Origin: a virus
Virus record (IMG/VR): IMGVR_UViG_3300010399_000066
Span: 1-34,300 of that record
Reading direction: 5' to 3' (one strand)
Length of the DNA: 34,300 nt
Shown: positions 2,221 to 31,755 of the stretch, one piece after another
How the letters are laid out: each line of letters opens with the position of its first letter
Position numbering within the stretch: the first letter of the stretch is position 1
Program-made: the position numbers and the translations under genes
Notes under the pieces: model-generated
Told to the model about the DNA's origin: nothing
The model's input: only the letters and a program-made list of their open reading frames with translations
Databases searched by the model: none

Positions 2221-2715
2221 CTACCCGCGGCGCACGATGGTCTGTTGCGGCACCAGAACACGGAATGGAACGCGCTCGACCAGCAGGCCGTTGATGGACA
2301 GTGCGAATCGGTAATAGCCCGGCGACTGGAAGACGAGCTGGTCGAGGTTGACCGCGAGCGGCACGACTTGGGACTCACCGAGCGGCATCGCGGTCATGCG
2401 GGGAACGGTCAATTGGACGCCGACGCCCATCGGGCGGCGCTCCTCGCTGCCATCGGGAATGCGCTGCGGCGGTCCGAGTGGCACCACTTCTCCGTCCTCG
2501 TTTTCCAGCTTGATCTCCAGCATGATGGCCTTGTTCGTGCCCGAGTACGGCACGCTGAGCAGGATCGCGAGCCCGATCCTGGGCTGCACGAACGGGAACT
2601 TCGGTGTGCCGAGGCTGCTCCAGCCGCCGCCGTGGACGAACAGCTTTCCTTCGGCGGTCGACACCGAGTCGCAGAGCATGGCATTGATGGCGAATTCGCC
2701 TGGATTTTCGATCAA
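2221..2715 (-). CDS. DUF6941-like protein
   Basis: A 164-aa protein. I chose TTG at 2715 because GGGAG lies 8 nt before it and because the longer open frame to 2814 runs across a divergent promoter region. An internal ATG twelve codons on would start MLCDSV and is possible. The stretch AMLCDSVSTAEGKLFVHGGGW, then RIGLAILLSVPYSGTNKAI and LEIKLENEDGE, matches the pattern of DUF6941 proteins, predicted all-beta proteins of unknown role found widely in actinobacteria. It ends with a beta-rich GYYRFALSINGLLVERVPFRV segment. It sits between two terminators, opposite a ribbon-helix-helix regulator, and is less GC-rich than the phage late genes, as expected of an acquired accessory gene. No catalytic residues are evident. 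Confidence 0.7.
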   Translation of the reverse strand: MIENPGEFAINAMLCDSVSTAEGKLFVHGGGWSSLGTPKFPFVQPRIGLAILLSVPYSGTNKAIMLEIKLENEDGEVVPLGPPQRIPDGSEERRPMGVGVQLTVPRMTAMPLGESQVVPLAVNLDQLVFQSPGYYRFALSINGLLVERVPFRVLVPQQTIVRRG

Positions 2716-2813
2716 GTGGTCAACTCCCGTATGACGATAAGCGCTCTTGCTCGCCCTTGATCGTACACACGATGACCCGATTGAGCGACTGGTGGCGATG
2801 ACGCTGTGGGTCA

Positions 2814-2834
2814 TGCTGTACTACGGATACAGCA
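2814..2834. promoter_or_regulatory. Inverted repeat upstream of the RHH gene, possible operator
   Basis: TGCTGTA at 2814-2820 and TACAGCA at 2828-2834 form a perfect 7-bp-arm dyad with a 7-bp spacer. It sits 22 bp before the ribbon-helix-helix gene start, in the divergent intergenic region. RHH proteins often repress their own promoter through such dyads; binding here is inferred. Confidence 0.5.
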
Positions 2835-4018: not shown

Positions 4019-4935
4019 CAGCCCGACGCCGGCGGTGCGAGCGCGGCGGCCAGGCGCTCGCGCAGCCGCTCCGCTTCCTGCCGCGAGCTGGCCAGCTCGG
4101 CGCGCATAGCGGCTAGCTCCGCGAGCGCCTTGCCCATCGCGGCCGACTCCGCCGCCGCCACGGCGTCGATCCTTGCCAGAATCGGCGCGGTGTCGATCGT
4201 GCCGCCGGCGCTGCCGGTAACAGCCTTCGCGAACGAGTCGAACGCGGCCCGGAACGCAGCGTCGCGCGCCACCTCGCCCGCGTTGTTCGTACGCACCGCG
4301 GCCAACGTGTCGCTGATGTTCCACGCTGCGATCCAGAGCAGATCAGCGGCCTTGCCAGGTCCGGGCTGCCTACCGGTCGGGTCACGGAGCAGTTCATCGA
4401 ACGCGCCCATGTCGTCTCCTTCGATCAAGGTCCGGAGCAGGCCGAGAAGGTTCCGGGCGTCCGCGCGCCGGCCCTCGCTGTCGCGGAACAGTGAGATGTG
4501 CGTGTGGGTCAGGTGCGACGAGTCGCCGGACTCCCGGATGCCGAGCCGGTCCCAGCGCAGGACCCGCTTCCCGTCCGGGCTGTAGATCACCTCGCGGATG
4601 TCCGCGCACCGGGGATCGCCGGCCTTGCACCGCTCGACCAGGGCCACCGACAGGGACCGCAGCGTGACGACCGACCCGTCCGGGCGGCGGTGCTCGAAGT
4701 AGCCGATGTCGATCGCACTGGCCGCGTTCGACCCGGGCCGGTCGCGGCTGCTCTCCCGCTTGGAGTAGTCCGACAGCAGCCGCCCGACCCGGTTGAGATC
4801 GTCGTTGCCCTCGTGGTAGCCGCCCGTGGCGACGTGGTCCGGGTCGCCAACGATCCCGATCGCGTCGGCGGCCAGGTCCAGGGTGACGAGCAGCCACCGC
4901 CGGATGTCGAGCAGATCAGTCGGTGCGTACGTCAC
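4018..4935 (-). CDS. Putative endolysin (M15-like peptidase fold suspected)
   Basis: A 305-aa protein. I chose GTG at 4935 because GGGGGAGG lies just upstream and the longer frame to 5136 would overlap the preceding gene with non-coding-like sequence. The N-terminal 175 residues contain conserved-looking His/Asp motifs: GGYHEG (H41), SAIDIG (D76), then HLTHTHISLF (H144, H146), an arrangement suggesting a zinc peptidase active site related to M15 peptidoglycan hydrolases. Spacing differs from canonical SxHxxGxAxD enzymes, so the assignment is tentative. Residues 181-305 look like a cell-binding or oligomerisation region ending in a long coiled coil (ELAAMRAELASSRQEAERLR). Its place between tail genes and holin-like genes strongly suggests the lysin cleaving host peptidoglycan. 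No signal peptide is seen, so it needs a holin. Confidence 0.6.
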   Translation of the reverse strand: MTYAPTDLLDIRRWLLVTLDLAADAIGIVGDPDHVATGGYHEGNDDLNRVGRLLSDYSKRESSRDRPGSNAASAIDIGYFEHRRPDGSVVTLRSLSVALVERCKAGDPRCADIREVIYSPDGKRVLRWDRLGIRESGDSSHLTHTHISLFRDSEGRRADARNLLGLLRTLIEGDDMGAFDELLRDPTGRQPGPGKAADLLWIAAWNISDTLAAVRTNNAGEVARDAAFRAAFDSFAKAVTGSAGGTIDTAPILARIDAVAAAESAAMGKALAELAAMRAELASSRQEAERLRERLAAALAPPASG

Positions 4936-4948
4936 GACGCCTCCCCCG

Positions 4949-5443
4949 CTAGGCCGGTCGGTAGCTGTAGAACAGCCGATAGGTGTCGTTGACCGCTGGT
5001 ACGACAGGGTTTGCCGCGCCGAGGAAGTTCGCCACTCCGTCGTCGATGCAGGACAGGTAGCCGGCCGCCGCCGGGTAGCAGATCCCGGCGTGGTTCGTGC
5101 CTGGCGAGGCGTCGAGGTGGTACAGCTCCCCGACACCGCCGGTCAACTCGTCCGCGTGCGCGTTGAACGGCAGGCTGAACCGGTAGTCCCCAGTCCCGAC
5201 CACGAAGGACGTACCGATGATGACGAGGATCTTCACGTCGATCAGGTCAGCACCGGCCGGCCTGCGGTACAGCGCCTTGTACGTGCTGTTGCCCTTCGTG
5301 GGGTTGGTGCCGCTCGACGTGAGGGTGAACGTGCCGGAGTAGTCGACCCACCCCGGCGCGGTCAGGCTGTCGATCTGAGCCGACAACAGGTTCAGATCCG
5401 ACGCGGCCAGCGGCGCGCCGGCGAAGAACGTCGGCATGGGCAC
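4949..5443 (-). CDS. Tail-fibre-region structural protein
   Basis: A 164-aa protein from GTG at 5443, 5 nt after AGGAGG; an ATG two codons in (5437) is an alternative. It opens FFAGAPLAASDLNLLSAQID, a pattern recurrent in small distal-tail proteins of actinobacteriophages, where a short helical N-terminus is followed by a jelly-roll-like beta domain (here from GWVDYSGTFTLTSSG onward, with a GTGDYRFSLPFNAHA strand pair). Such proteins are thought to sit at the tail tip or fibre and may bind the host surface; this is family-pattern knowledge rather than proof. It lies between the minor tail protein and the lysin, 9 nt beyond the former. Confidence 0.6.
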   Translation of the reverse strand: MPMPTFFAGAPLAASDLNLLSAQIDSLTAPGWVDYSGTFTLTSSGTNPTKGNSTYKALYRRPAGADLIDVKILVIIGTSFVVGTGDYRFSLPFNAHADELTGGVGELYHLDASPGTNHAGICYPAAAGYLSCIDDGVANFLGAANPVVPAVNDTYRLFYSYRPA

Positions 5444-5452
5444 GGCAGCCTC

Positions 5453-7642
5453 CTATGGGACGGGTCGGAACGCGTCGACCACCCGCACGGGCGCGCCCGC
5501 CGGGTGGTCACGACGGATGCCGTTGACCGCCCGTTCGGTGATCACGAAGGACTGCGGCGACGACCCGCCGCTGATCGACGACAGGCGGATGAACTCACCC
5601 CGGACCTTGATCAGCATCGGGAAGTGCGCCGGGTTGGTGGTCCACAACGTCGCGTCGTTGAGCTGGACCGACACCGCCCCGAGTTGCCCGGCGGGGAGCG
5701 CGGCGACCAGCTCGGCGTCGCCGGCGAGCCGGCCAAGCCACATGTCGTCCAGCAGCCCGACCGTCATCGGCTGCGCCGGCGATGTGAACAGCGTCCCGGT
5801 CCAGTCGCGGAGCCCGTTCAGGACGTGCGTGCGGCCTTCGTACAGCATCGCCATGTCCCCGGGCGGGTGCTGTGGCAGGACCGTCCGCACGTGGAGCACC
5901 TGGACCAGGTCGCCGAGCTGAAGTCCTTGCCAGCCACGGACCAGGTTCGGGTGCTTGCCCAGGTTCGCGGTGACCGCGGACACCCGCATCCCCGGGGTGG
6001 TGGTCCGGGCGGTCCGCCACGCGGCATGTTGCATCAGCCGGTCGTCTGTGGCCGGGTTGATGGTTGCCGAGTCGGGGAGCCGGGCCCGCTTCTGGTGCTC
6101 CCTATCCGCGTATGTGGCGCTGGACCCGGACGGGCGACTCACCGTCCACTCGTTACGGATCACGCTCTTGTCCCGCGTCGGCTTGAACGGGTCGCCCAGC
6201 TCACCGGCCGCCGCGTCCACCAGGTACCCGGCGGTCTGGTTGTACAGCGCTGTCCGGGGTCGGTACCGGAACCCGAACGCGTGTTCACTGAGCCGGCCGC
6301 CGTCAGTTGCCTCGCACTCCAGCACGATCGCGGCCGGCGTGCCGGGCTGCTGCGGGCCCATCGGCTCGCTGTCGCCCGGGACGATGTCGACCGGGATCCG
6401 CTCCTCGGCCGCGACCCGCTCGATCCGGTCCGAGGCCAGCTCACCGGCGTGCCCGGTCCCAGCGGGGTACAGGTACGCGGCGTCGGGGTCGCCGGCGATG
6501 ACGAGCTGCGCCACGCCGGCCCGGACGATCCCGTGTACGGAGTCGAACCCGTCCGGCTGCTCGGCGTCGGCACCTACGATCGCTTCGATCGGTGGGCCGA
6601 GGGTCAGCGGATCACCGCCGCTGCCGCAGACCTGCGGGGTCGTGTCGACCCGCCCATCGATGTCGTGGAGGATCTCGATCGTGGACGCCGTGGCCTGCCG
6701 GACCCTGACGCGGCTGTGCACCCATCGGGGGAACGGTCCGTCGAGGACACCCCCGAACCCGGGGAACGCGGGGAACGACGGATCGTCCCTGTGCACCCAC
6801 AGGGTGATGCCTTGCACGCCGTCGGTGTCGACCTCGTGTGATATCCGGATCCGGCCCAGCGACCCCGCGCAGTCGATCTTCAGGACGTGCGCGGACTCGA
6901 AACCGTCCATCTCCGCCGGTGGTACGGATTCGACGAACGTCCACACCTGGACCGACCACCCGGCCGCTGGCAGTCCGGACAGCGGCGCCCGCAGCGACCC
7001 GACGTACGCCCCGTCTGTGACCACCTGCACGTACGAGCCGGGCGCCCCGGCCAGCACGGGATCGCTGACCGCCCCGAACGACGGGCGCAGCTGGCCCGGC
7101 ACCATCGGGCGGCCCCGGTCCAGGCCGCTACCCGCCTGCGTCGCGTCCTGCCCGTCGTTCAGCGGCCAGTGGAACGCCGGTGCGAGCGCGTTCACGGCCC
7201 GCTGTACCGGGGTCAGGTCGGGTGGCGTGCCGGTCTGGAGCACGCCGAGGATGCCCGTACAGGCCACCCTGACGACCGCGCCGTGCCGGGTCCGCCCGGG
7301 CCACTCCGGTAGGAGTGACGAGATATAGCCGGCGAAGTAGTCGACCTGGCCGTGTCCGGCGTCCACTTGCCACCACACCGGTGTGCCCTCGACCACGCCC
7401 AGGTCATCGTCGGGGGTGTGGACCCCGGACGGGTTTTTCAGCGTGAACGTGCAGGTACTCGTCTCCAGCTGTGACCCGCCCTCTGAGCGGCCCTCGGTGA
7501 CCGGTACCGGGACGGACACCTCCCACCCGTTCGCCCCGGTTGTGTAGTCCACCCAGGGCCACGTCGCCGGCGGCGTCGACACGTCCGCGCCGTACGCGAT
7601 GAGCAGCGTCACCAGCAACCCGTCGCGGGGGAACTCCACCAC
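5453..7642 (-). CDS. Minor tail protein with LamG-like domain
   Basis: About 729 aa from GTG at 7642 (GGGGG upstream; GTG at 7639 is equally possible). Residues 1-145 resemble the beta-rich N-terminal region of distal-tail proteins. About 150-380 look like a LamG/concanavalin-type jelly roll (FHWPLNDGQDATQAG, then SVQVWTFVE, KIDCAGSLGRIRISHE and RVRQATASTIEILHD), a fold used for carbohydrate binding. The remainder is an extended beta-rich region ending in GIRRDHPAGAPVRVVDAFRP, a motif often closing such tail proteins. It follows the tape measure gene by 10 nt and is the largest protein of the baseplate region, so it is the best candidate for host-surface recognition. No hydrolase motif was found. 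Confidence 0.75.
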   Translation of the reverse strand: MVEFPRDGLLVTLLIAYGADVSTPPATWPWVDYTTGANGWEVSVPVPVTEGRSEGGSQLETSTCTFTLKNPSGVHTPDDDLGVVEGTPVWWQVDAGHGQVDYFAGYISSLLPEWPGRTRHGAVVRVACTGILGVLQTGTPPDLTPVQRAVNALAPAFHWPLNDGQDATQAGSGLDRGRPMVPGQLRPSFGAVSDPVLAGAPGSYVQVVTDGAYVGSLRAPLSGLPAAGWSVQVWTFVESVPPAEMDGFESAHVLKIDCAGSLGRIRISHEVDTDGVQGITLWVHRDDPSFPAFPGFGGVLDGPFPRWVHSRVRVRQATASTIEILHDIDGRVDTTPQVCGSGGDPLTLGPPIEAIVGADAEQPDGFDSVHGIVRAGVAQLVIAGDPDAAYLYPAGTGHAGELASDRIERVAAEERIPVDIVPGDSEPMGPQQPGTPAAIVLECEATDGGRLSEHAFGFRYRPRTALYNQTAGYLVDAAAGELGDPFKPTRDKSVIRNEWTVSRPSGSSATYADREHQKRARLPDSATINPATDDRLMQHAAWRTARTTTPGMRVSAVTANLGKHPNLVRGWQGLQLGDLVQVLHVRTVLPQHPPGDMAMLYEGRTHVLNGLRDWTGTLFTSPAQPMTVGLLDDMWLGRLAGDAELVAALPAGQLGAVSVQLNDATLWTTNPAHFPMLIKVRGEFIRLSSISGGSSPQSFVITERAVNGIRRDHPAGAPVRVVDAFRPVP

Positions 7643-21887: not shown

Positions 21888-22168
21888 CAGACGCGCGGCG
21901 GCCAGTAGGCGCCGACGTGTGGGCCCATGTGCTCAGCACCCGGCAGGGTGGCCAGGCGGGCCCGTTCCGTCTCGTACGCCTCCAGCGTCGGGTACAGCGG
22001 CACCGATGTGCGGCGCACGACCGGGCCGTCCCGGTCGGGCAGAACTGTGAGGTTGACGCAGGTGTCGGACCAGACGCGCGTGATGATCGCTGGTGCGGTG
22101 TCGGTGCCGTTGTTGTCGATCGGCAGAAGCCCGCCGATCAACACCATGCGGGCAAGACTCGGCTTCAC
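21887..22168 (-). CDS. Small conserved phage protein, unknown function
   Basis: A 93-aa protein from GTG at 22168, with AGAGGAA upstream and a 4-nt overlap to the methyltransferase stop. The start MKPSLARMVLIGGLLPIDNN, then DTAPAIITRVWSDTCVNLTV, recalls a family of small phage proteins that read as a beta barrel with the phrase D-T-A-P-A-I-I-T-R. They are often encoded near structural or replication genes, with no known activity. The C-terminus (LEAYETERARLATLPGAEH) is helical. Confidence 0.6.
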   Translation of the reverse strand: MKPSLARMVLIGGLLPIDNNGTDTAPAIITRVWSDTCVNLTVLPDRDGPVVRRTSVPLYPTLEAYETERARLATLPGAEHMGPHVGAYWPPRV

Positions 22169-22959
22169 AGAGATTCCTCTCGGATGGGTGGTAGCACGTC
22201 GAGCAGGGTTGCCTGACGCTGCGGATCGGGTGCCATCTCGGCGGCCGTCAAACGGGCGACGGCATCGGTGACGTGGTGCGCGATCTGCTCGACCCCGACG
22301 AAGCGGCGCCCCTCGATGAGTGCGGCGACACCGGTCGTCCCCGAACCGGTGAACGGGTCGAGGATCACCCCGCCGGGCGGGCAGATCCGCACCACATCCC
22401 GCAGAACCTCCAGCGGTTTCTGGGTGATGTGCGTCCGTTCCCTCAGCGCATTCGCCTCGAAGAACCCGCCGAGGGTCTCTGACGCGTCCCGGGGTCGGGG
22501 GCCGTTGGTGCCCCAGACCAGGTACTCGCAGGTGTTCGCGTACCGGCCCTGCGTGCGGCGCCCGTTCGGCTTGTGCCACGGCACGATGCCCCGCCACACC
22601 CACCCGCCGGCCTGCAACGCGTCCGTCGTCGTCGGCAGTTGCCGCCAGTCCGTGAAGAGGACACACGCACCGCCCGGGGCGGTCACCCGCCGGGCCTCGG
22701 ACAGCCACAGCGCCGACCAGTACCCGTAACCGCGCTGGTCGCGGTTGTCACCGCTGAACCCGGCGAGTGCCCGCCCGGTGACGCTGTCGGTGTTGACGTA
22801 CTTCGCGTGGACGCCTTGGGTGCGGTCACCGCGGACCATGCCACCGGAGGAGTACGGCGGGTCGGTGATCACCGCGTCGACCGTCGCGTCGGGCATGGCG
22901 GCCAGGACGGCGAGGGCCTCGCCGTGCCACAGCGTGGCCCGGTCGGTCGCGTACACCAC
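22165..22959 (-). CDS. DNA methyltransferase, N6-adenine/N4-cytosine type
   Basis: About 264 aa from GTG at 22959 or 22956, a few nt after the TerL stop; the longer frame to 23139 lies inside terL and is rejected. Motif IV, DPPYSSGG (33-40), comes before the SAM-binding motif I, DPFTGSGTTG (201-210), the order of beta-class amino-methyltransferases. The target-recognition region lies between. A TQKPLEVLRDVVRI segment before motif I matches the usual motif X. It transfers methyl groups from SAM to adenine N6 or cytosine N4; DPPY slightly favours adenine. No restriction gene is near, so it is an orphan enzyme, probably protecting phage DNA from host restriction or marking DNA for packaging. Confidence 0.88.
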   Translation of the reverse strand: MVYATDRATLWHGEALAVLAAMPDATVDAVITDPPYSSGGMVRGDRTQGVHAKYVNTDSVTGRALAGFSGDNRDQRGYGYWSALWLSEARRVTAPGGACVLFTDWRQLPTTTDALQAGGWVWRGIVPWHKPNGRRTQGRYANTCEYLVWGTNGPRPRDASETLGGFFEANALRERTHITQKPLEVLRDVVRICPPGGVILDPFTGSGTTGVAALIEGRRFVGVEQIAHHVTDAVARLTAAEMAPDPQRQATLLDVLPPIREESL

Positions 22960-22964
22960 CCGGT

Positions 22965-24257
22965 TTAGGCGGCCAGTGCGAGGTTCACCCACGGCCGCCA
23001 GATCCCTTCGGTGGTCTTCACGACGTACCGGCCCGCGTCCAGGGAGTGATCGCGGGCCTTGATCGGCTTGTCCGCGCCGAGGAGAGCGGCTTTCGGGTCC
23101 CAGGTGTAGCCGGTCACCTCGTCGATCCAGCCGGTACACGACTCGTGGACGGCGAGCAGCCCAGCGCCGAGCAGCGACGACATGAGCCGGATCCCGTCGA
23201 CGACCGCGTTGTCCGCGTCGGTCGACGGCACACCGTCACGGCCGAGCTGCTCGGAGAACGACGCAGCGGACGGGTCAACAACGGTCCACTCTGGACGAAC
23301 GCTCATGGTGTCGAGCCACCCGCGCAACGCTCGCGAGTAGTCCAGGTCGGTCATCGTGCGCCGCTCGCGGCGGGAGTCCCACCGCCACTCACGGGCCAGG
23401 TACAGGCGGTGCCGCTGCTGCTCGGGGTCGAAGCCCAGGCCGAGCAGCAGCGCCGCGAACGCCGCGGTGGTGGCGTAGTCCACACCCAGGCCGATCCACC
23501 GGTCGATGGGTGGCAGCGTCGGCACCACGTGCCGGACAGGGTCCCACATGGAGTAGATCGCGCCGTCCGCGATCACCCATTCACCGAGAATGAACCGCTT
23601 GTACCAGAGGCCGAGGTACTCGCGTTTCAGCTGCTCCACATAGGACGGGTTGCTCCGCAGCAACCACAGGTTGTCGTCGAGCCGGAACGAGAACCGGTGC
23701 AGGTCGAGGCGGTCGGGGCCGTCGAACCGCAACGTTTGCCCGTCGCCGGTCAGCCACAGCGACGCCCGGGACAACCAGTCCCGCATCAGCCAATGCCCGG
23801 GATTGTCCGGGTTCGTGGTCGCGAACAGCTGGGCCCCGGGCTCGGACAGCCGACCCGTGAGCATGATCCAGAACGATTCCGGGACCAGCGACGCCTCGTC
23901 GACGTAGGCGCCCACCAGGGTCAAGCCCCGGATCTTGTCCTGCGCCAGTTCGTTGTTCGCGCCGGCGAGATAGACCCGCCGGCCACAGATCCACAGCTCA
24001 CCCGACCCGATCACGTGGCGCGCCCGCTTGGGGCCGAGGTACGCCAGGATCGGGTCAATGATGTTGCGTTGCAGCGTCCGCTCGGTCTTCGCGACCATCA
24101 GCAGGTTGCCGGGCGGGGCGGTGCGGACGAACCGCAGCCACCGCAGGATCGACACGAGGGTCTTACCGGACCGGATGCTGCCTTCGAGGATGTTGATCCG
24201 GGCGGTGCACAGCTCGGCGGTGCGGCGGCCCTTGCCCTCCAGCGGTGTGATGGCCAT
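22965..24257 (-). CDS. terL: Terminase large subunit
   Basis: A 430-aa protein with ATG at 24257, which overlaps the TerS stop (TGATG); the longer frame to 24281 is not needed. Walker A is GSIRSGKT (26-33) and the Walker B-like strand with catalytic Glu is GAYVDEAS (116-123). The nuclease half has GLGVDYATTAAFAALLLGLG and DPSAASFSEQLG, with D407 in SLDAGRYVV, candidate metal-binding acids of the RNase H-like fold. It resembles PBSX-type terminases. The protein pumps DNA into the procapsid with ATP and cuts the concatemer. Gene order TerS-TerL-portal is canonical. Headful or cohesive-end packaging cannot be told from this sequence. Confidence 0.95.
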   Translation of the reverse strand: MAITPLEGKGRRTAELCTARINILEGSIRSGKTLVSILRWLRFVRTAPPGNLLMVAKTERTLQRNIIDPILAYLGPKRARHVIGSGELWICGRRVYLAGANNELAQDKIRGLTLVGAYVDEASLVPESFWIMLTGRLSEPGAQLFATTNPDNPGHWLMRDWLSRASLWLTGDGQTLRFDGPDRLDLHRFSFRLDDNLWLLRSNPSYVEQLKREYLGLWYKRFILGEWVIADGAIYSMWDPVRHVVPTLPPIDRWIGLGVDYATTAAFAALLLGLGFDPEQQRHRLYLAREWRWDSRRERRTMTDLDYSRALRGWLDTMSVRPEWTVVDPSAASFSEQLGRDGVPSTDADNAVVDGIRLMSSLLGAGLLAVHESCTGWIDEVTGYTWDPKAALLGADKPIKARDHSLDAGRYVVKTTEGIWRPWVNLALAA

Positions 24258-26508: not shown

Positions 26509-26693
26509 CGGCAGCGGTGTCCTTCCGGGTAGACGGTGTCGATGGGGCCGAAGCATGTGGGGCACTGGCGTAGCTCGGCGCGTGGCGGCGGTTCGGTGGG
26601 CGGCTGGGTGCGGTGTGTGTCGACCAGGTCGGCAGCGCGGGCTCGTACCGCGGCGGCGGCTCGGGCGATGCGGCGGTCTCGGGCGGTGTTCAT
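26505..26693 (-). CDS. Small protein with terminal zinc-finger-like motif
   Basis: A 62-aa protein with ATG at 26693, preceded by GGAGGA at 5 nt. The N-terminal half is a basic helix (ARDRRIARAAAAVRARAADL) and the C-terminal half has CPTC and a GHRC end, a probable short zinc ribbon. The basic helix could bind nucleic acid. ATGA overlaps join it to the replication-initiator-like gene upstream and the Cys-rich gene downstream. Confidence 0.6.
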   Translation of the reverse strand: MNTARDRRIARAAAAVRARAADLVDTHRTQPPTEPPPRAELRQCPTCFGPIDTVYPEGHRCR

Positions 26694-27607
26694 GCGGCTC
26701 CTCCGGTGATGACGCGGAGTGATGGGCGGCCGGGGGTGCGGCGGTCGGGTGCGAGGGCGCGACAGAACACACACGCGAGCCGGCCGTCCGGGCGGGGTCC
26801 GGCGCGCTGGGTCGGATGCTCGGCGCATGGCCCGGGCGCATCCACATCCGAGGAAATCTGATCTTCAGGCGGTGGGCTCGCGCGGGAAGCGGTGACGGCC
26901 GTACGAAGATCCGTATCAGGGTGGTCGGTGGTAGTTCTGGTGCGGTCGTGGTCGGTAAGCGGGTCCGCCGGACCCCCCGGCGCTGGTCCGCCGGACCACC
27001 CAGAGCTGTTTTCGGCGGGTCCGGCGGACCCCCCAGCCTCAGGCGCGCACACCTCGTCCGGGTGGTCCGGCGGACCACCCACGGCGGAGTTGTCCACAGC
27101 CTGTGCGTGGTCCGCCGGACCACCCACAGGTTCGGGCGCGGGTGGTCCGGCGGACCCAGCGGGCTTGCCGCGGGCCGCGTCGCGCAGACGCCTCGCGGCG
27201 AGCTTGTGTTGCGCCGGCGTGGGCACGTTCAGGACGTCGAGGAGGTCGCTGGGGAGGGTCAGCCGGTACTCCTCGCCACGTTCCCCGTGCCTGCCGCGTA
27301 CGTGCTGGAGCAGGCCCAACTCCAGCAGCTTCTTACGCACGGTGACGACGTTCTTGATGGTTGTTCCGAGGTCGACCGCGATGGTGGCGTCCCCTGCCCA
27401 GATCTCCTGACCGCGGTCGTTGGCGTAGGAGGCCCAGCACAGCGCGATCGCAGTGAACGTCAGCTCGGTCATGCCGCCCTTGGTGGGTCGGCCGTCCTTG
27501 CCGAGGCGGGTGCTGCCGGCGATCAGGCTGCCGGTGCGGGCGCGGCGGATGATCTGCTCCCACTCGTAGCGGCCGGCGGCCCTCAGCTCGCGCTGGTCCT
27601 CGGTCAC
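26690..27607 (-). CDS. Replication-initiator-like winged-helix protein
   Basis: A 305-aa protein from GTG at 27607, 5 nt after GGGGGCG. Residues about 40-125 form a winged helix (TELTFTAIALCWASYANDRG, then TIAVDLGTTIKNVVTVRKKL and LELGLLQHVRGRHGERGEEY), a pattern found in phage replication proteins of the O/DnaD-like class. Residues about 150-220 are a Gly/Pro/Asp-rich linker whose DNA carries six perfect dyads. The C-terminal 80 residues include a Cys-x-x-Cys (ACVFCRAL). In lambda, O protein binds iterons inside its own gene to open the origin. By analogy this protein would bind the dyads at 26962-27156 and recruit the host helicase. This is inference. A general transcription regulator is the alternative. 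Confidence 0.65.
   Translation of the reverse strand: MTEDQRELRAAGRYEWEQIIRRARTGSLIAGSTRLGKDGRPTKGGMTELTFTAIALCWASYANDRGQEIWAGDATIAVDLGTTIKNVVTVRKKLLELGLLQHVRGRHGERGEEYRLTLPSDLLDVLNVPTPAQHKLAARRLRDAARGKPAGSAGPPAPEPVGGPADHAQAVDNSAVGGPPDHPDEVCAPEAGGSAGPAENSSGWSGGPAPGGPADPLTDHDRTRTTTDHPDTDLRTAVTASRASPPPEDQISSDVDAPGPCAEHPTQRAGPRPDGRLACVFCRALAPDRRTPGRPSLRVITGGAA
26962..27156. repeat. Six perfect 13-bp dyads inside the initiator gene, candidate replication origin
   Basis: Copies of GGTCCG-N-CGGACC occur at 26962-26974, 26985-26997, 27018-27030, 27064-27076, 27109-27121 and 27144-27156. Each has perfect 6-bp arms around a single C or G; the fourth extends to 10-bp arms (27060-27080) and the fifth to 8-bp. 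Start-to-start spacing is 23, 33, 46, 45 and 35 bp. All lie in the linker-coding part of the winged-helix gene, residues about 151-216, and I saw none elsewhere in the window. Irregular spacing and dyad symmetry fit protein-binding sites rather than CRISPR. Function as an origin is inferred from the lambda O arrangement. Confidence 0.65.
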
Positions 27608-28586: not shown

Positions 28587-28752
28587 GGCGATCCTCGGCG
28601 AGCGCGTGTGCTTGGCCCGCGGCCTTGCGGACGGCGTGTGTCGCGGTGGGGCCGCCCCACGCGGTCATGCACCGTTGCAACGGCGTGGCGTTGCAACGGG
28701 TGCAGGGTACGGCCAGGGACGCGGGGTCGGCCTGGACCCATTGGCGGGTCAT
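28579..28752 (-). CDS. Phage zinc-finger protein, 57 aa
   Basis: Starting at ATG 28752 with a 4-nt overlap to the helicase stop. The product (MTRQWVQADPASLAVPCTRC, then NATPLQRCMTAWGGPTATHA and VRKAAGQAHALAEDRRG) contains Cys-x-x-Cys, then Cys, His: the C-x-x-C-x-A-x-P-x-x-x-C-x(n)-H-x-x-R pattern of short zinc-binding phage proteins common in Streptomyces elements. It is too short for most gene finders. Probably nucleic-acid binding; function unknown. Confidence 0.6.
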   Translation of the reverse strand: MTRQWVQADPASLAVPCTRCNATPLQRCMTAWGGPTATHAVRKAAGQAHALAEDRRG

Positions 28753-30416
28753 GTTCGGCTGCCAGCGAACAGGCCCGTGATTGCGGACCAGCGGGCGGCG
28801 GCGGCCGGGTCACAGATGCACCGGGGTGAACAGCAGCGCAGGCACATCGAATCGGTGGCGGGTTTGGTCGCCGGGGCCGGCACGGTATGGGCTTCGATCT
28901 GATCGATTTCGTCGTCGGGCCAGTCGTCCGGGGGTTCCGGCTGGGCCAACGGCCGGAACGGCGGCGTCGCCGTCTTTGGCGTCCACCGGTCGACCCATGC
29001 CAGGCCCTGCCGGCCGAGAACCTGCCGGGCCCTGGTGACCGCGACGTACGCGAGCATTGCGTCCTCCCGCGGGATGCGGGGGTTGGGGTTGTCTTCGGAC
29101 GTCTTGGGTTCGCGGAAGTCGTCGGCGATCTGCACGCGCGGCCACTCGCGCCCCTTGGCCTTGTGCGCGGTGGAGATCACCACGTCGGCGTGGTCCTCCG
29201 GTACCAACCGCCCCAGGATGGCGATCACCTGCTCTGGACCGTAGGTGTCGATCAGTCGGACGGCCACCTGCAGATCCGAGCCGGCCGAGTCCTCCTCGAC
29301 GTAGGCGATGACGTCGGACCAGCTGGCGAAGGCGCACAGTTCGGGGTGGGCAGTGCTGCCGGTGCCGCGTAGCTCGAGGGCTGCTTCGGCAAGGGATTGG
29401 ATCTCTTTGCCGCCGCCGACGAGAGCGGTGCGGGCACCAGCGGTGGTGTAGGCCATGCACTGGCGGACGGCTTCGGCGTTGGTGCGGCACAGGACCGCGT
29501 CCGCGGCGATAGTGTCGACCACCTGTGAGGCGATGCGGTCGAAGCCACGCAGCCGCAGCCGGGCGCCGAGGACCGCGAGCCATTTGTTGGCCTCATCCGC
29601 CACCGCGGGCCCGAACCGGAAGCTCTGCGATAGCAGCAGTCGGAGGCCAGGGGCATGTTCCATGGCGTCGACGGCGCCGCGCCATCCGTAGATGGCTTGG
29701 GACCGGTCGCCGACCCAGATCCGCTGCGCGTGCTGCCCGGTGACGAGGGCGGCGACGCACGGGTTGGAGTCCTGCGCCTCGTCGAGCAGCACGTAGTCCG
29801 CGCCGAGCTGGGGGCCGGACATTGCCCACAACTTCAGGTAGCAGTCGTGACTGAACCGTAGGCGGCCGTCGAGCGGGGCTATGTGCTGGTCCCAGGCGGC
29901 CTGCGCGACGGGTACCAGATACCCGGCCAGGTCGGCGCGGTGCGGTTCGCTGTCGATGCCGTTGACGAGGGGCACATGTGTCCGCTGGAGCTGGTTGTCC
30001 GCGCTGTAGCAGAACCGTTGCACCGTTTCCATCACGAGGCGGGCCAGTTGCTGGGGGGCGAGCGGGGCGCGGTCCTTGTCGAGCTGGACCGGGTCGTTGA
30101 GTCCGAGGATGCGGGCGGTTTCGCGGGCCGGCATGCGGGGCGCGCGGAGCCGGTGAGCGTACTGGCGGCCGACCGCGGCGTAGGCGAGGCTGTGTGCGGT
30201 CTTGCACAGCACGTTGACGGGGAAGGCGCGGGCGGCGTCGACCTGGATCGCCTTGTTGTAGGCCAGGTACACGCCGCGCTTTCCCGCGAGGCGGGCGGCG
30301 ACCAGGCGCAGGGTGGATGTTTTGCCGGTGCCGGCGCCGGCCTCGACAACCAGGTCGGCGCCGCTCGCGGCGGCATCGACGATGGCGGCCTGCTCGGGTG
30401 TGGGCGGGTGGGTCAT
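28749..30416 (-). CDS. UvrD/Rep-like superfamily 1 helicase
   Basis: A 555-aa protein with ATG at 30416, overlapping the recombinase stop by 4 nt; the open frame runs on to 31541 but that part is shadow. Motif I is EAGAGTGKTS (25-34), motif II VLLDEAQDSN, motif III VGDRSQAIYGWRGA, motif V STAHKAKGREWPRVQI and motif VI LAYVAVTRARQVL. All are in order, so an active ATP-dependent 3'-5' helicase is expected. The C-terminus has CLRCCSPRCICDPAAAARW, a possible zinc site. Next to a Sak4-like recombinase it would serve in recombination-dependent replication or repair of phage DNA. It is shorter than UvrD (about 720 aa), as is usual for phage members. Confidence 0.9.
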   Translation of the reverse strand: MTHPPTPEQAAIVDAAASGADLVVEAGAGTGKTSTLRLVAARLAGKRGVYLAYNKAIQVDAARAFPVNVLCKTAHSLAYAAVGRQYAHRLRAPRMPARETARILGLNDPVQLDKDRAPLAPQQLARLVMETVQRFCYSADNQLQRTHVPLVNGIDSEPHRADLAGYLVPVAQAAWDQHIAPLDGRLRFSHDCYLKLWAMSGPQLGADYVLLDEAQDSNPCVAALVTGQHAQRIWVGDRSQAIYGWRGAVDAMEHAPGLRLLLSQSFRFGPAVADEANKWLAVLGARLRLRGFDRIASQVVDTIAADAVLCRTNAEAVRQCMAYTTAGARTALVGGGKEIQSLAEAALELRGTGSTAHPELCAFASWSDVIAYVEEDSAGSDLQVAVRLIDTYGPEQVIAILGRLVPEDHADVVISTAHKAKGREWPRVQIADDFREPKTSEDNPNPRIPREDAMLAYVAVTRARQVLGRQGLAWVDRWTPKTATPPFRPLAQPEPPDDWPDDEIDQIEAHTVPAPATKPATDSMCLRCCSPRCICDPAAAARWSAITGLFAGSRT

Positions 30417-31510
30417 GCGGTCGCTCCAGCGGGTTCCTGTTGGGCGAGGAACGACTCCAGCCGTGTAACCACCTGTTCGACCTCGTCCGGGGTCAGCTGG
30501 TCGGTGCTGGCCAGCTCCCGGCCGACCACTTCGCCGGCGAACGCGAGCTGCTGGTCCTGCTCGCCGAACTCCGCCTGGGCGAGTAGTGCGAGCATCCGGC
30601 GACGGCGCGGGTCGTCGGCCACGGTGGTTGCGGTACGGGCGGCCCGGCCGCGGTCGGCGATCAGTTCGCCGAGCGTGGTGGCGCTGCCGGCGGCGTCGAC
30701 CACGGGGGCGCCGAGGATGCCGGCCCTGCGGGCCCGCTCGTACAACGCGAGTAGCTCGTCGCGGCTGGTGCCCGGTACCAGGGCGGCGTCGCGGAGCTGG
30801 ACCGCGTTCGGGCCACCCTCGACACCATCGTCGAGCCAGGCCCGGATGGTGCGGCCCAACTCTTCGTCGGGCTGGCGAATCACGGCACCGGACAGTGACG
30901 CGCACCTCGACTTCGAGACGACCAGGTTGTTCTCCTGGTCGAGGTCGCCGACGATGTCGAACTCGTACTCGATCCCGTCCCGCTGCACGGCCTTCATGCC
31001 GATCTTGCGTGGGACCTTCTTCCCGCGGTCGTTCTCCTCGATCACCCACTCGGTCTTGGTCCGCATCGTGACGATGAGGTGCCCGGGGTAGGCGAGCATG
31101 GCGTCGACCATCCGCCGCTCGATCGGGGTGACCTCTTTCCACCCGCCGAAGCTGTTGCCGCCGGCGGAGCGCTTCGCGGCCCGGTCGACCTGTTCGAGCA
31201 TGCCGTCGATGCCCATCCAAAAGTGCGACAGCGAGTCGACGATGAACACCTCGTACCCGCCCGCACCGCCGGCGGCGAGCGCTTCGATCAGCGTCTTCGG
31301 GTCGTACGCCGTCAGGGCGAGGGTGTCGAAGGTGAACAGATCGGCGTACTTGCTGGCCGAGCCGTGTTCGGTGTCGAGCAGCGCGATCCGGGCGCCGAGG
31401 CCGGTCGCCAGGCGCAGCGCGGTGTACGTCTTGCCTGATCCAGCGGGGCCTTCGAGGGCGATGCGGGCCTTGGCCTGCCTTTTCGTGGCCGGCGCGAACT
31501 GGAGTGCCAT
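30413..31510 (-). CDS. Sak4-like RecA-fold ATPase (AAA_24), single-strand annealing recombinase
   Basis: A 365-aa protein; ATG at 31510 is chosen, though GTG at 31513 sits one codon upstream. Walker A is GPAGSGKT (21-28), Walker B VFIVD (88-92), with ALLDTEHGSASKY between; a basic DRGKKVPRKIGMKAVQRDG segment follows. This is the AAA_24 family to which the Sak4 recombinases of lactococcal and other phages belong. They anneal single strands and work with an SSB and a helicase. The helicase is the next gene. The C-terminal 120 residues look like a helical domain of variable type. No SSB was recognised in the window, so a host SSB may be used. Confidence 0.82.
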   Translation of the reverse strand: MALQFAPATKRQAKARIALEGPAGSGKTYTALRLATGLGARIALLDTEHGSASKYADLFTFDTLALTAYDPKTLIEALAAGGAGGYEVFIVDSLSHFWMGIDGMLEQVDRAAKRSAGGNSFGGWKEVTPIERRMVDAMLAYPGHLIVTMRTKTEWVIEENDRGKKVPRKIGMKAVQRDGIEYEFDIVGDLDQENNLVVSKSRCASLSGAVIRQPDEELGRTIRAWLDDGVEGGPNAVQLRDAALVPGTSRDELLALYERARRAGILGAPVVDAAGSATTLGELIADRGRAARTATTVADDPRRRRMLALLAQAEFGEQDQQLAFAGEVVGRELASTDQLTPDEVEQVVTRLESFLAQQEPAGATA

Positions 31511-31755
31511 CACCGGCCGCCCTGCATGGCGCTGAGGTCACCGACGAACGGGGCCGTACGGCGAGTGTCCCGGTCGGCGTCGAGCGCCTCGGCGATCTCG
31601 GCCCTCGACAGGGGCAGGGTGTGCTCCACGAGCACGGACGGCCGGTGCGCGCGGGGGGTGAAGTCGCCGAAGGCGTGGCGGCCGGACGGTGCGATCGCGC
31701 CGGGACGGTGCCGGCCGGGCTGGGTGCGGCGGAAGAAACGGTCGAGCAACTTCAC
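31510..31755 (-). CDS. Small basic early protein, unknown function
   Basis: An 81-aa protein from GTG at 31755 with GGAGG and 6-nt spacing. It starts MKLLDRFFRRTQPGRHRPGA and is proline- and arginine-rich to about residue 40, then helical (LPLSRAEIAEALDADRDTRR). No family or metal site. It precedes the recombinase and is coupled to both neighbours by short overlaps. Confidence 0.55.
   Translation of the reverse strand: MKLLDRFFRRTQPGRHRPGAIAPSGRHAFGDFTPRAHRPSVLVEHTLPLSRAEIAEALDADRDTRRTAPFVGDLSAMQGGR

Follow-up and report, generated by a model that had tools for sequence, protein, structure and literature searches.

A candidate replication origin within the initiator-like gene of a probable actinobacterial phage

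An initiator-like gene at positions 26690-27607 (minus strand) of a viral IMG/VR record contains a cluster of short inverted repeats, raising the question of whether this gene carries a replication origin within its own sequence. In the window (the whole record, 34,300 bases), six exact copies of GGTCCG-N-CGGACC are present, all within 26962-27156. A search elsewhere in the 34.3-kb window found zero exact and zero one-mismatch copies, in agreement with a sequence-only reading of this DNA that had reported six such dyads here and none at other positions.

The dyad array and the protein it encodes

All six dyads are exact matches on the minus strand. In gene-strand order, dyad 1 (GGTCCGCCGGACC) is at 27144-27156 and is followed by dyad 2 at 27109-27121 (35 bp beyond dyad 1), dyad 3 at 27064-27076 (45 bp beyond dyad 2), dyad 4 at 27018-27030 (46 bp beyond dyad 3), dyad 5 at 26985-26997 (33 bp beyond dyad 4), and dyad 6, the last, at 26962-26974 (23 bp beyond dyad 5). 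The resulting spacing is 35-45-46-33-23, in which dyad 6 is the anchor of a conserved 46-33-23 spacing. Because the left flank of the repeat unit, TGGG(G/T)GGTCCG..., is also conserved, the unit in the window is a directional iteron with an internal dyad rather than a bare palindrome.

In the AlphaFold2 model of the 305-amino acid product, residues ∼10-145 form a winged-helix domain predicted with confidence (pLDDT mostly >80), residues ∼150-250 are disordered, and a C-terminal segment follows; a zinc-ribbon-like CxxH-x14-CxxC motif is found at the C terminus from residue 261 on. The six dyads encode residues ∼151-215 of the Gly/Pro-rich, repetitive linker, directly past the winged helix and within the disordered stretch, so the model bears out the earlier placement of the dyads in the linker-coding part of the gene. 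The protein matched PHROG replication initiation families (phrog_270, the O-like phrog_391, and phrog_428; E values of 4e-5 to 3e-3); these initiator-profile matches are weak (E about 5e-5) and do not extend beyond the winged helix and the first part of the linker. Among the 25 members of a family alignment, phrog_270 was matched by 17 (best E = 2.4e-10) and phrog_391 by 15 (1.7e-8), and other members matched phrog_1032, phrog_345, and phrog_678. A Pfam scan of the 305-amino acid protein found no family, a PDB sequence search with the initiator gave no significant match, and a PDB fold search with its model returned only generic winged helices (E ≥ 4e-3), the weak matches including the winged-helix regulators MarR, CodY, and CymR. 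On the basis of its sequence relationships, the gene at 26690-27607 is a relative of replication initiators.

Helicase and recombinase neighbors had been proposed for this gene, and both Pfam and PHROG identify them as a UvrD/Rep-type helicase (28749-30410, start approximate, minus strand; scanned as part of ORF 28749-31541; Pfam UvrD; phrog_1967, E = 4.8e-84) and a Sak4-like recombinase/AAA ATPase (30413-31513, minus strand; Pfam AAA_24; phrog_1366, 3e-92; phrog_124, 1.7e-8), which share one replication/recombination cluster with the initiator-like gene. No lambda-P/DnaC-like loader was recognized among the neighboring ORFs scanned, where small unannotated genes remain. The window also encodes an N6/N4 DNA methyltransferase (22165-23139, minus strand; Pfam N6_N4_Mtase, phrog_67) and a DUF6941 gene of unassigned function (2221-2814, minus strand; Pfam E = 5.6e-23).

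Relatives of the initiator and constraint on the sites

A tblastn search with the window protein against phages and plasmids gave no match, and relatives were reached solely via profiles and divergent members. Profile searches identified 18 loci in viral contigs and 11 in GTDB genomes, and within Micromonosporaceae, the family of Virgisporangium, 25 of 355 genomes had a match. With divergent members as queries, tblastn reached Mycobacterium abscessus prophages (e.g. phiGD34-2 and phiGD21-1), Mycolicibacterium phages of 10.9 kb, WillG among them, and CP108834, a phage-like extrachromosomal record of 58.7 kb from Micromonospora sp. NBC_00855 that carries terminase, head protein, integrase, and RecT. 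The ∼40 relatives thus comprise actinobacterial phages, prophages (many of them presumed), satellite-sized phages of 10.9 kb, and one extrachromosomal phage-like record.

Nearly all of these relatives have an array at the same place in the initiator gene region. At the fixed mismatch threshold used for detection, arrays were weak, doubtful, or absent at 11 loci (L024, L050, L051, L057, L058, L060, L064, L065, L067, L070, and L075), and none was found in the podovirus MW202738 (L078). Matches on Streptomyces and Rhodococcus plasmids (H37-H52) are distant winged-helix proteins; five were examined, none had an array, and the plasmid matches were therefore left out of the count.

Several individual loci have features of their own. 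The initiator of WillG (L079, OR387121, 4741-5853) has a 7-copy array with the irregular spacing 18-23-14-31-19-22, and the 10.9-kb satellite-sized phages that carry the initiator are from Mycolicibacterium aichiense. Two IMG/VR contigs from different metagenomes (L006 and L007; 3300043331_001462 and 3300036839_000035) have identical initiator genes and arrays. The M. abscessus prophages L077 and L080 have a second HTH gene just downstream of the initiator homolog (5079-5954 and 4100-4975, respectively) and a phage-encoded sliding clamp upstream of it. On three Streptomyces/Kitasatospora plasmids (L083, L085, and L086), distant winged-helix relatives without a dyad array adjoin genes of the DUF721/DciA type, a helicase-loader family, and these are possibly plasmid replicons made of a winged-helix HTH protein plus DciA.

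A repetitive, Gly/Pro-rich linker could by itself yield repeated DNA, in which case the dyads would be a by-product of a protein-level repeat. When synonymous codons were permuted with the protein unchanged, 0, 1, and 2 dyads appeared in 8949, 1010, and 41 of 10,000 trials, respectively, compared with the six observed. In addition, the window dyads are read in two frames, as S-A/G-G-P and G-P-A/P-D. Across six pairs of relatives, 4-fold sites were identical at 68 of 74 positions (92%) in the dyads versus 243 of 413 (59%) in the DNA-binding domain (Fisher p = 3e-9), so the dyads are conserved at synonymous positions, as the sequence-only reading had suggested checking. The gene ends after ∼140 codons in Nocardia prophages (L017, L018, L021, L032, and L036; L021 is an IMG/VR contig of this type), with most or all of the array beyond its end, and in CP108834 most of the array is in an annotated intergenic gap (L081 6346-6664); the arrays outside the gene have a 46-45-45-22-22-type spacing. 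Because these arrays are mostly non-coding, a coding explanation is excluded, and the protein-repeat account, against which the codon permutation, mixed frames, and 4-fold conservation also stand, retains next to no probability.

The dyads might also belong to a palindrome found throughout the host, and the earlier reading had named equal frequency elsewhere as grounds for abandoning an origin. Among three related genomes, dyads were absent outside the array in two, and the third contained 7 scattered copies versus 7 for a control pattern, the number expected by chance. A host-wide palindrome is thus unsupported in these genomes.

Conserved spacing and flanking elements

Relatives typically have arrays spaced 45/47-46-33-23 or 45-45-22-22 on the gene strand. 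The individual spacings are 54-45-46-33-23 (L005), 47-46-33-23 (L048, L028, and L029), 36-45-46-33-23 (L054/L059), 45-46-33-23 (L055, L061, and L072), 44-46-33-23 (L053), 46-45-45-22-22 (Nocardia-type L021, L032, and L036), and 33-33-33-34-23 (phiGD21-1). An array in L011/L012 is spaced 35-67-23, with one expected copy decayed (GAGTCCGGCGGAGC), and represents a natural reduced array.

Site copies inside one array stay alike, and the cores differ among relatives (GGTCCGNCGGACC; CTGATCCCTCAGGGATCAG; GACCTGCAGGTGC; GGGTGCCTCAGGCACCC). The cores of some site classes share just 7-9 of 19 bases (shuffled expectation, 8.3), so that an identical 46-33-23 spacing is found with site cores at chance-level similarity; the repeat sequence has been replaced, in several cases to this extent. 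The constants across the family are the position, spacing, and direction of the array. Dyad symmetry is strong in the clade of the window and weaker in other relatives, where some sites keep one good half. The earlier description of short perfect dyads is therefore exact for the window, with perfect symmetry a feature of its clade, and the family-wide unit is better named a directional iteron with an internal dyad.

Intervals between sites cluster at 21-23, 32-37, 43-49, and 54-57 bp. A common period of 11.35 bp fits them best (mean cosine, 0.71; 10.5 bp gives 0.04, and the 95% level of the jittered null is 0.20), a value to be taken as a lead because intervals are non-independent across relatives. 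If real, this period suggests that the sites face the same side of a DNA that is wrapped or underwound.

Dyad 6 is immediately followed on its 3′ side by a candidate strand-opening element (26909-26961, minus strand) that is G-poor, ACC-rich, and relatively AT-rich (AT 0.38 versus 0.29 background). The stretch past the last dyad contains 12 G per 60 nt versus 21, and 7 ACC versus 1.7. In the 60 nt past the last site of 42 homologs, the median G count is 11 versus 19.8 and the median ACC count is 5 versus 1.65, and all 42 fall below their own background for G and above it for ACC (Wilcoxon p = 5e-13, a value that overstates the independent evidence, as do the other flank p-values, because relatives share ancestry). 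Averaged over the family, AT content is highest at +30..+60, where it exceeds background by 13.5 points, with an absolute AT of about 38-45%. Beyond this element, about 60-90 bp past the last-dyad centre, is a conserved end box, CTTCGTACGGCCGTCACCG...CGCGCGAG (26875-26908, minus strand). Past the array, CGTACGG is present in 15 of 42 homologs (0.6 expected) and CGCGCG in 27 of 42 (3.6 expected), and these end boxes are mostly +79 to +85 bp (∼82) from the last-site centre, including in the non-coding Nocardia copies.

The array as a probable origin and its precedents

The homology to initiators, the constraint on the sites at the DNA level, and the spacing and flanks that persist independently of reading frame, together with the candidate strand-opening element, support the earlier proposal of a self-contained origin. 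Based on these results, we conclude that the array is very probably the replication origin of an actinobacterial phage, of the lambda-O kind and built into its own initiator gene. The neighboring helicase and recombinase genes and the satellite-sized phages that carry the gene with a 7-copy array also point to an origin. By analogy with lambda, the winged-helix domain, presumably acting as a dimer, would occupy the six dyads within the DNA that encodes the linker, the phased protein-DNA complex would strain the adjacent G-poor, ACC-rich stretch at 26909-26961 until it opens, and host DnaB helicase would then be loaded, possibly aided by the zinc-ribbon tail. Since no P/DnaC-like loader was recognized, DnaB recruitment may be direct or may occur via an unrecognized small gene.

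Dyads are often bound by winged-helix proteins as dimers, and among solved structures generic winged-helix regulators come closest, at weak E values; the sites could thus be operators through which the protein regulates its own transcription or an early operon, with the origin elsewhere. We consider this unlikely, since the array occupies a central or 3′ position in the gene rather than a promoter, operators seldom consist of 5-7 phased copies with fixed spacing plus a fixed element beside them, and the PHROG matches of the family point to replication initiation. A parS-like partition site or a pac site that happens to fall in the initiator gene is very improbable. Repeat clusters do mark such sites, and a small terminase gene is about 2.2 kb off in the window, but ParA/ParB were not recognized among the window genes scanned and the terminase is not at a constant distance (in CP108834 the annotated terminase is at 7.3-8.9 kb with the initiator at 16.2 kb; in WillG the two genes are at 0.1-0.4 and 4.7-5.9 kb, respectively), the array always going with the initiator gene and not the terminase. 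An equally slim probability attaches to an RNA element in the mRNA, such as attenuator or terminator hairpins. Each dyad could form a short GC-rich RNA stem, but the one-base centre limits such a stem to about 5 bp closed by a 3-nt loop, and the sites in some relatives that keep one half are unable to form a hairpin while the spacing is still kept.

An origin inside an initiator gene is of a known kind, as lambda O illustrates. In lambda, O dimers on repeats inside gene O open a neighboring AT-rich stretch (PMC5043065, PMC7466680), and the layout noted in the sequence-only reading, with candidate sites inside an initiator-like gene past its DNA-binding domain, does correspond to that of lambda. 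The contrast that it drew with lambda-type iterons fails because those are themselves dyads, being near-perfect inverted repeats bound by O dimers (PMC5043065), as is directly visible in the J02459 sequence. Both systems have an origin (here a candidate) in mid-gene, several inverted-repeat iterons (six perfect dyads in the window), and a last spacing of 23 bp; the easily melted stretch directly downstream in lambda may have its counterpart in the candidate element here. Lambda differs in having four 18-19-bp iterons 20-24 bp apart, whereas the family described here has 5-7 sites separated by 2, 3, or 4 steps of ∼11.35 bp; in having a 40-bp AT-rich tract in place of a C/A-rich, G-poor element that is only moderately AT-rich (38% versus 29%); and in having the P loader gene next door, where no P gene was recognized here. 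The end box and the zinc-ribbon tail are extra in the present system. The window protein matches O-like phrog_391 with its N-terminal part (E = 6e-5), lambda O matches the C-terminal part of that profile, and lambda O also matches phrog_345 and phrog_678, to which 10 and 9 relatives, respectively, match as well. Judged from these profiles, homology of the family to lambda O itself would be at best remote.

In RepA_N plasmids, too, the origin is located inside rep. The best match in the fold search, 4pql (E = 4e-3, not significant), and 4pt7 and 5kbj, which were also listed, are what we take to be RepA_N-type initiators (the N-terminal domain of pSK41-type RepA); however, none of the 25 family members has a Pfam match to the RepA_N domain. 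Rep_3 likewise had no Pfam match in the window genes scanned or the 25 members, and Rep_3-type plasmids have non-coding direct-repeat iterons, unlike the dyads within the gene here. The Streptomyces plasmids pWTY27 and pFP11 are also actinobacterial theta replicons with Rep-bound repeats (binding being predicted here), although the pWTY27 iteron is in non-coding DNA beside the rep genes (PMC3583192). The nearest experimental work found concerns the mycobacteriophages Miko, Rachaly, and Jeeves, whose RepA is an actinobacterial phage initiator with an N-terminal HTH, is needed for prophage maintenance but not lytic growth, and has an origin inferred to be immediately upstream of or within repA; the regions examined have no repeated motifs, in contrast to the array in the window family (PMC7157519).

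In the open-access literature on origins and iterons, our search found no description of this actinobacterial array family, and its family-wide architecture, specificity switching, flanking boxes, and relocation outside the gene appear to be undescribed there. Phage-like origins of linear Streptomyces plasmids, pSLA2 among them, are the subject of older work, and, to our knowledge, the origins of most temperate actinobacterial phages are unmapped.

These observations raise the possibility, which we regard as evenly balanced, that in this widespread family of actinobacterial phage origins the conserved code is the spacing in ∼11.35-bp steps and not the site sequence. A switch in initiator specificity would then rewrite all 5-7 sites together, inside coding DNA and across reading frames, while the geometry stays, and a step longer than that of B-DNA would be the mark of an initiator-DNA complex, wrapped or underwound, that opens the ACC-rich strand. 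The array signature locates the likely origin in dozens of prophages, named mycobacterial ones included, and the initiator plus array suggest compact replicons for actinomycete vectors. The ∼40 natural initiator-site pairs, whose sequences have changed while their geometry is almost constant, would allow direct tests of joint specificity change and of what a winged-helix initiator needs for DNA opening, and the pair is well suited as a model of coupled change in initiators and origins.
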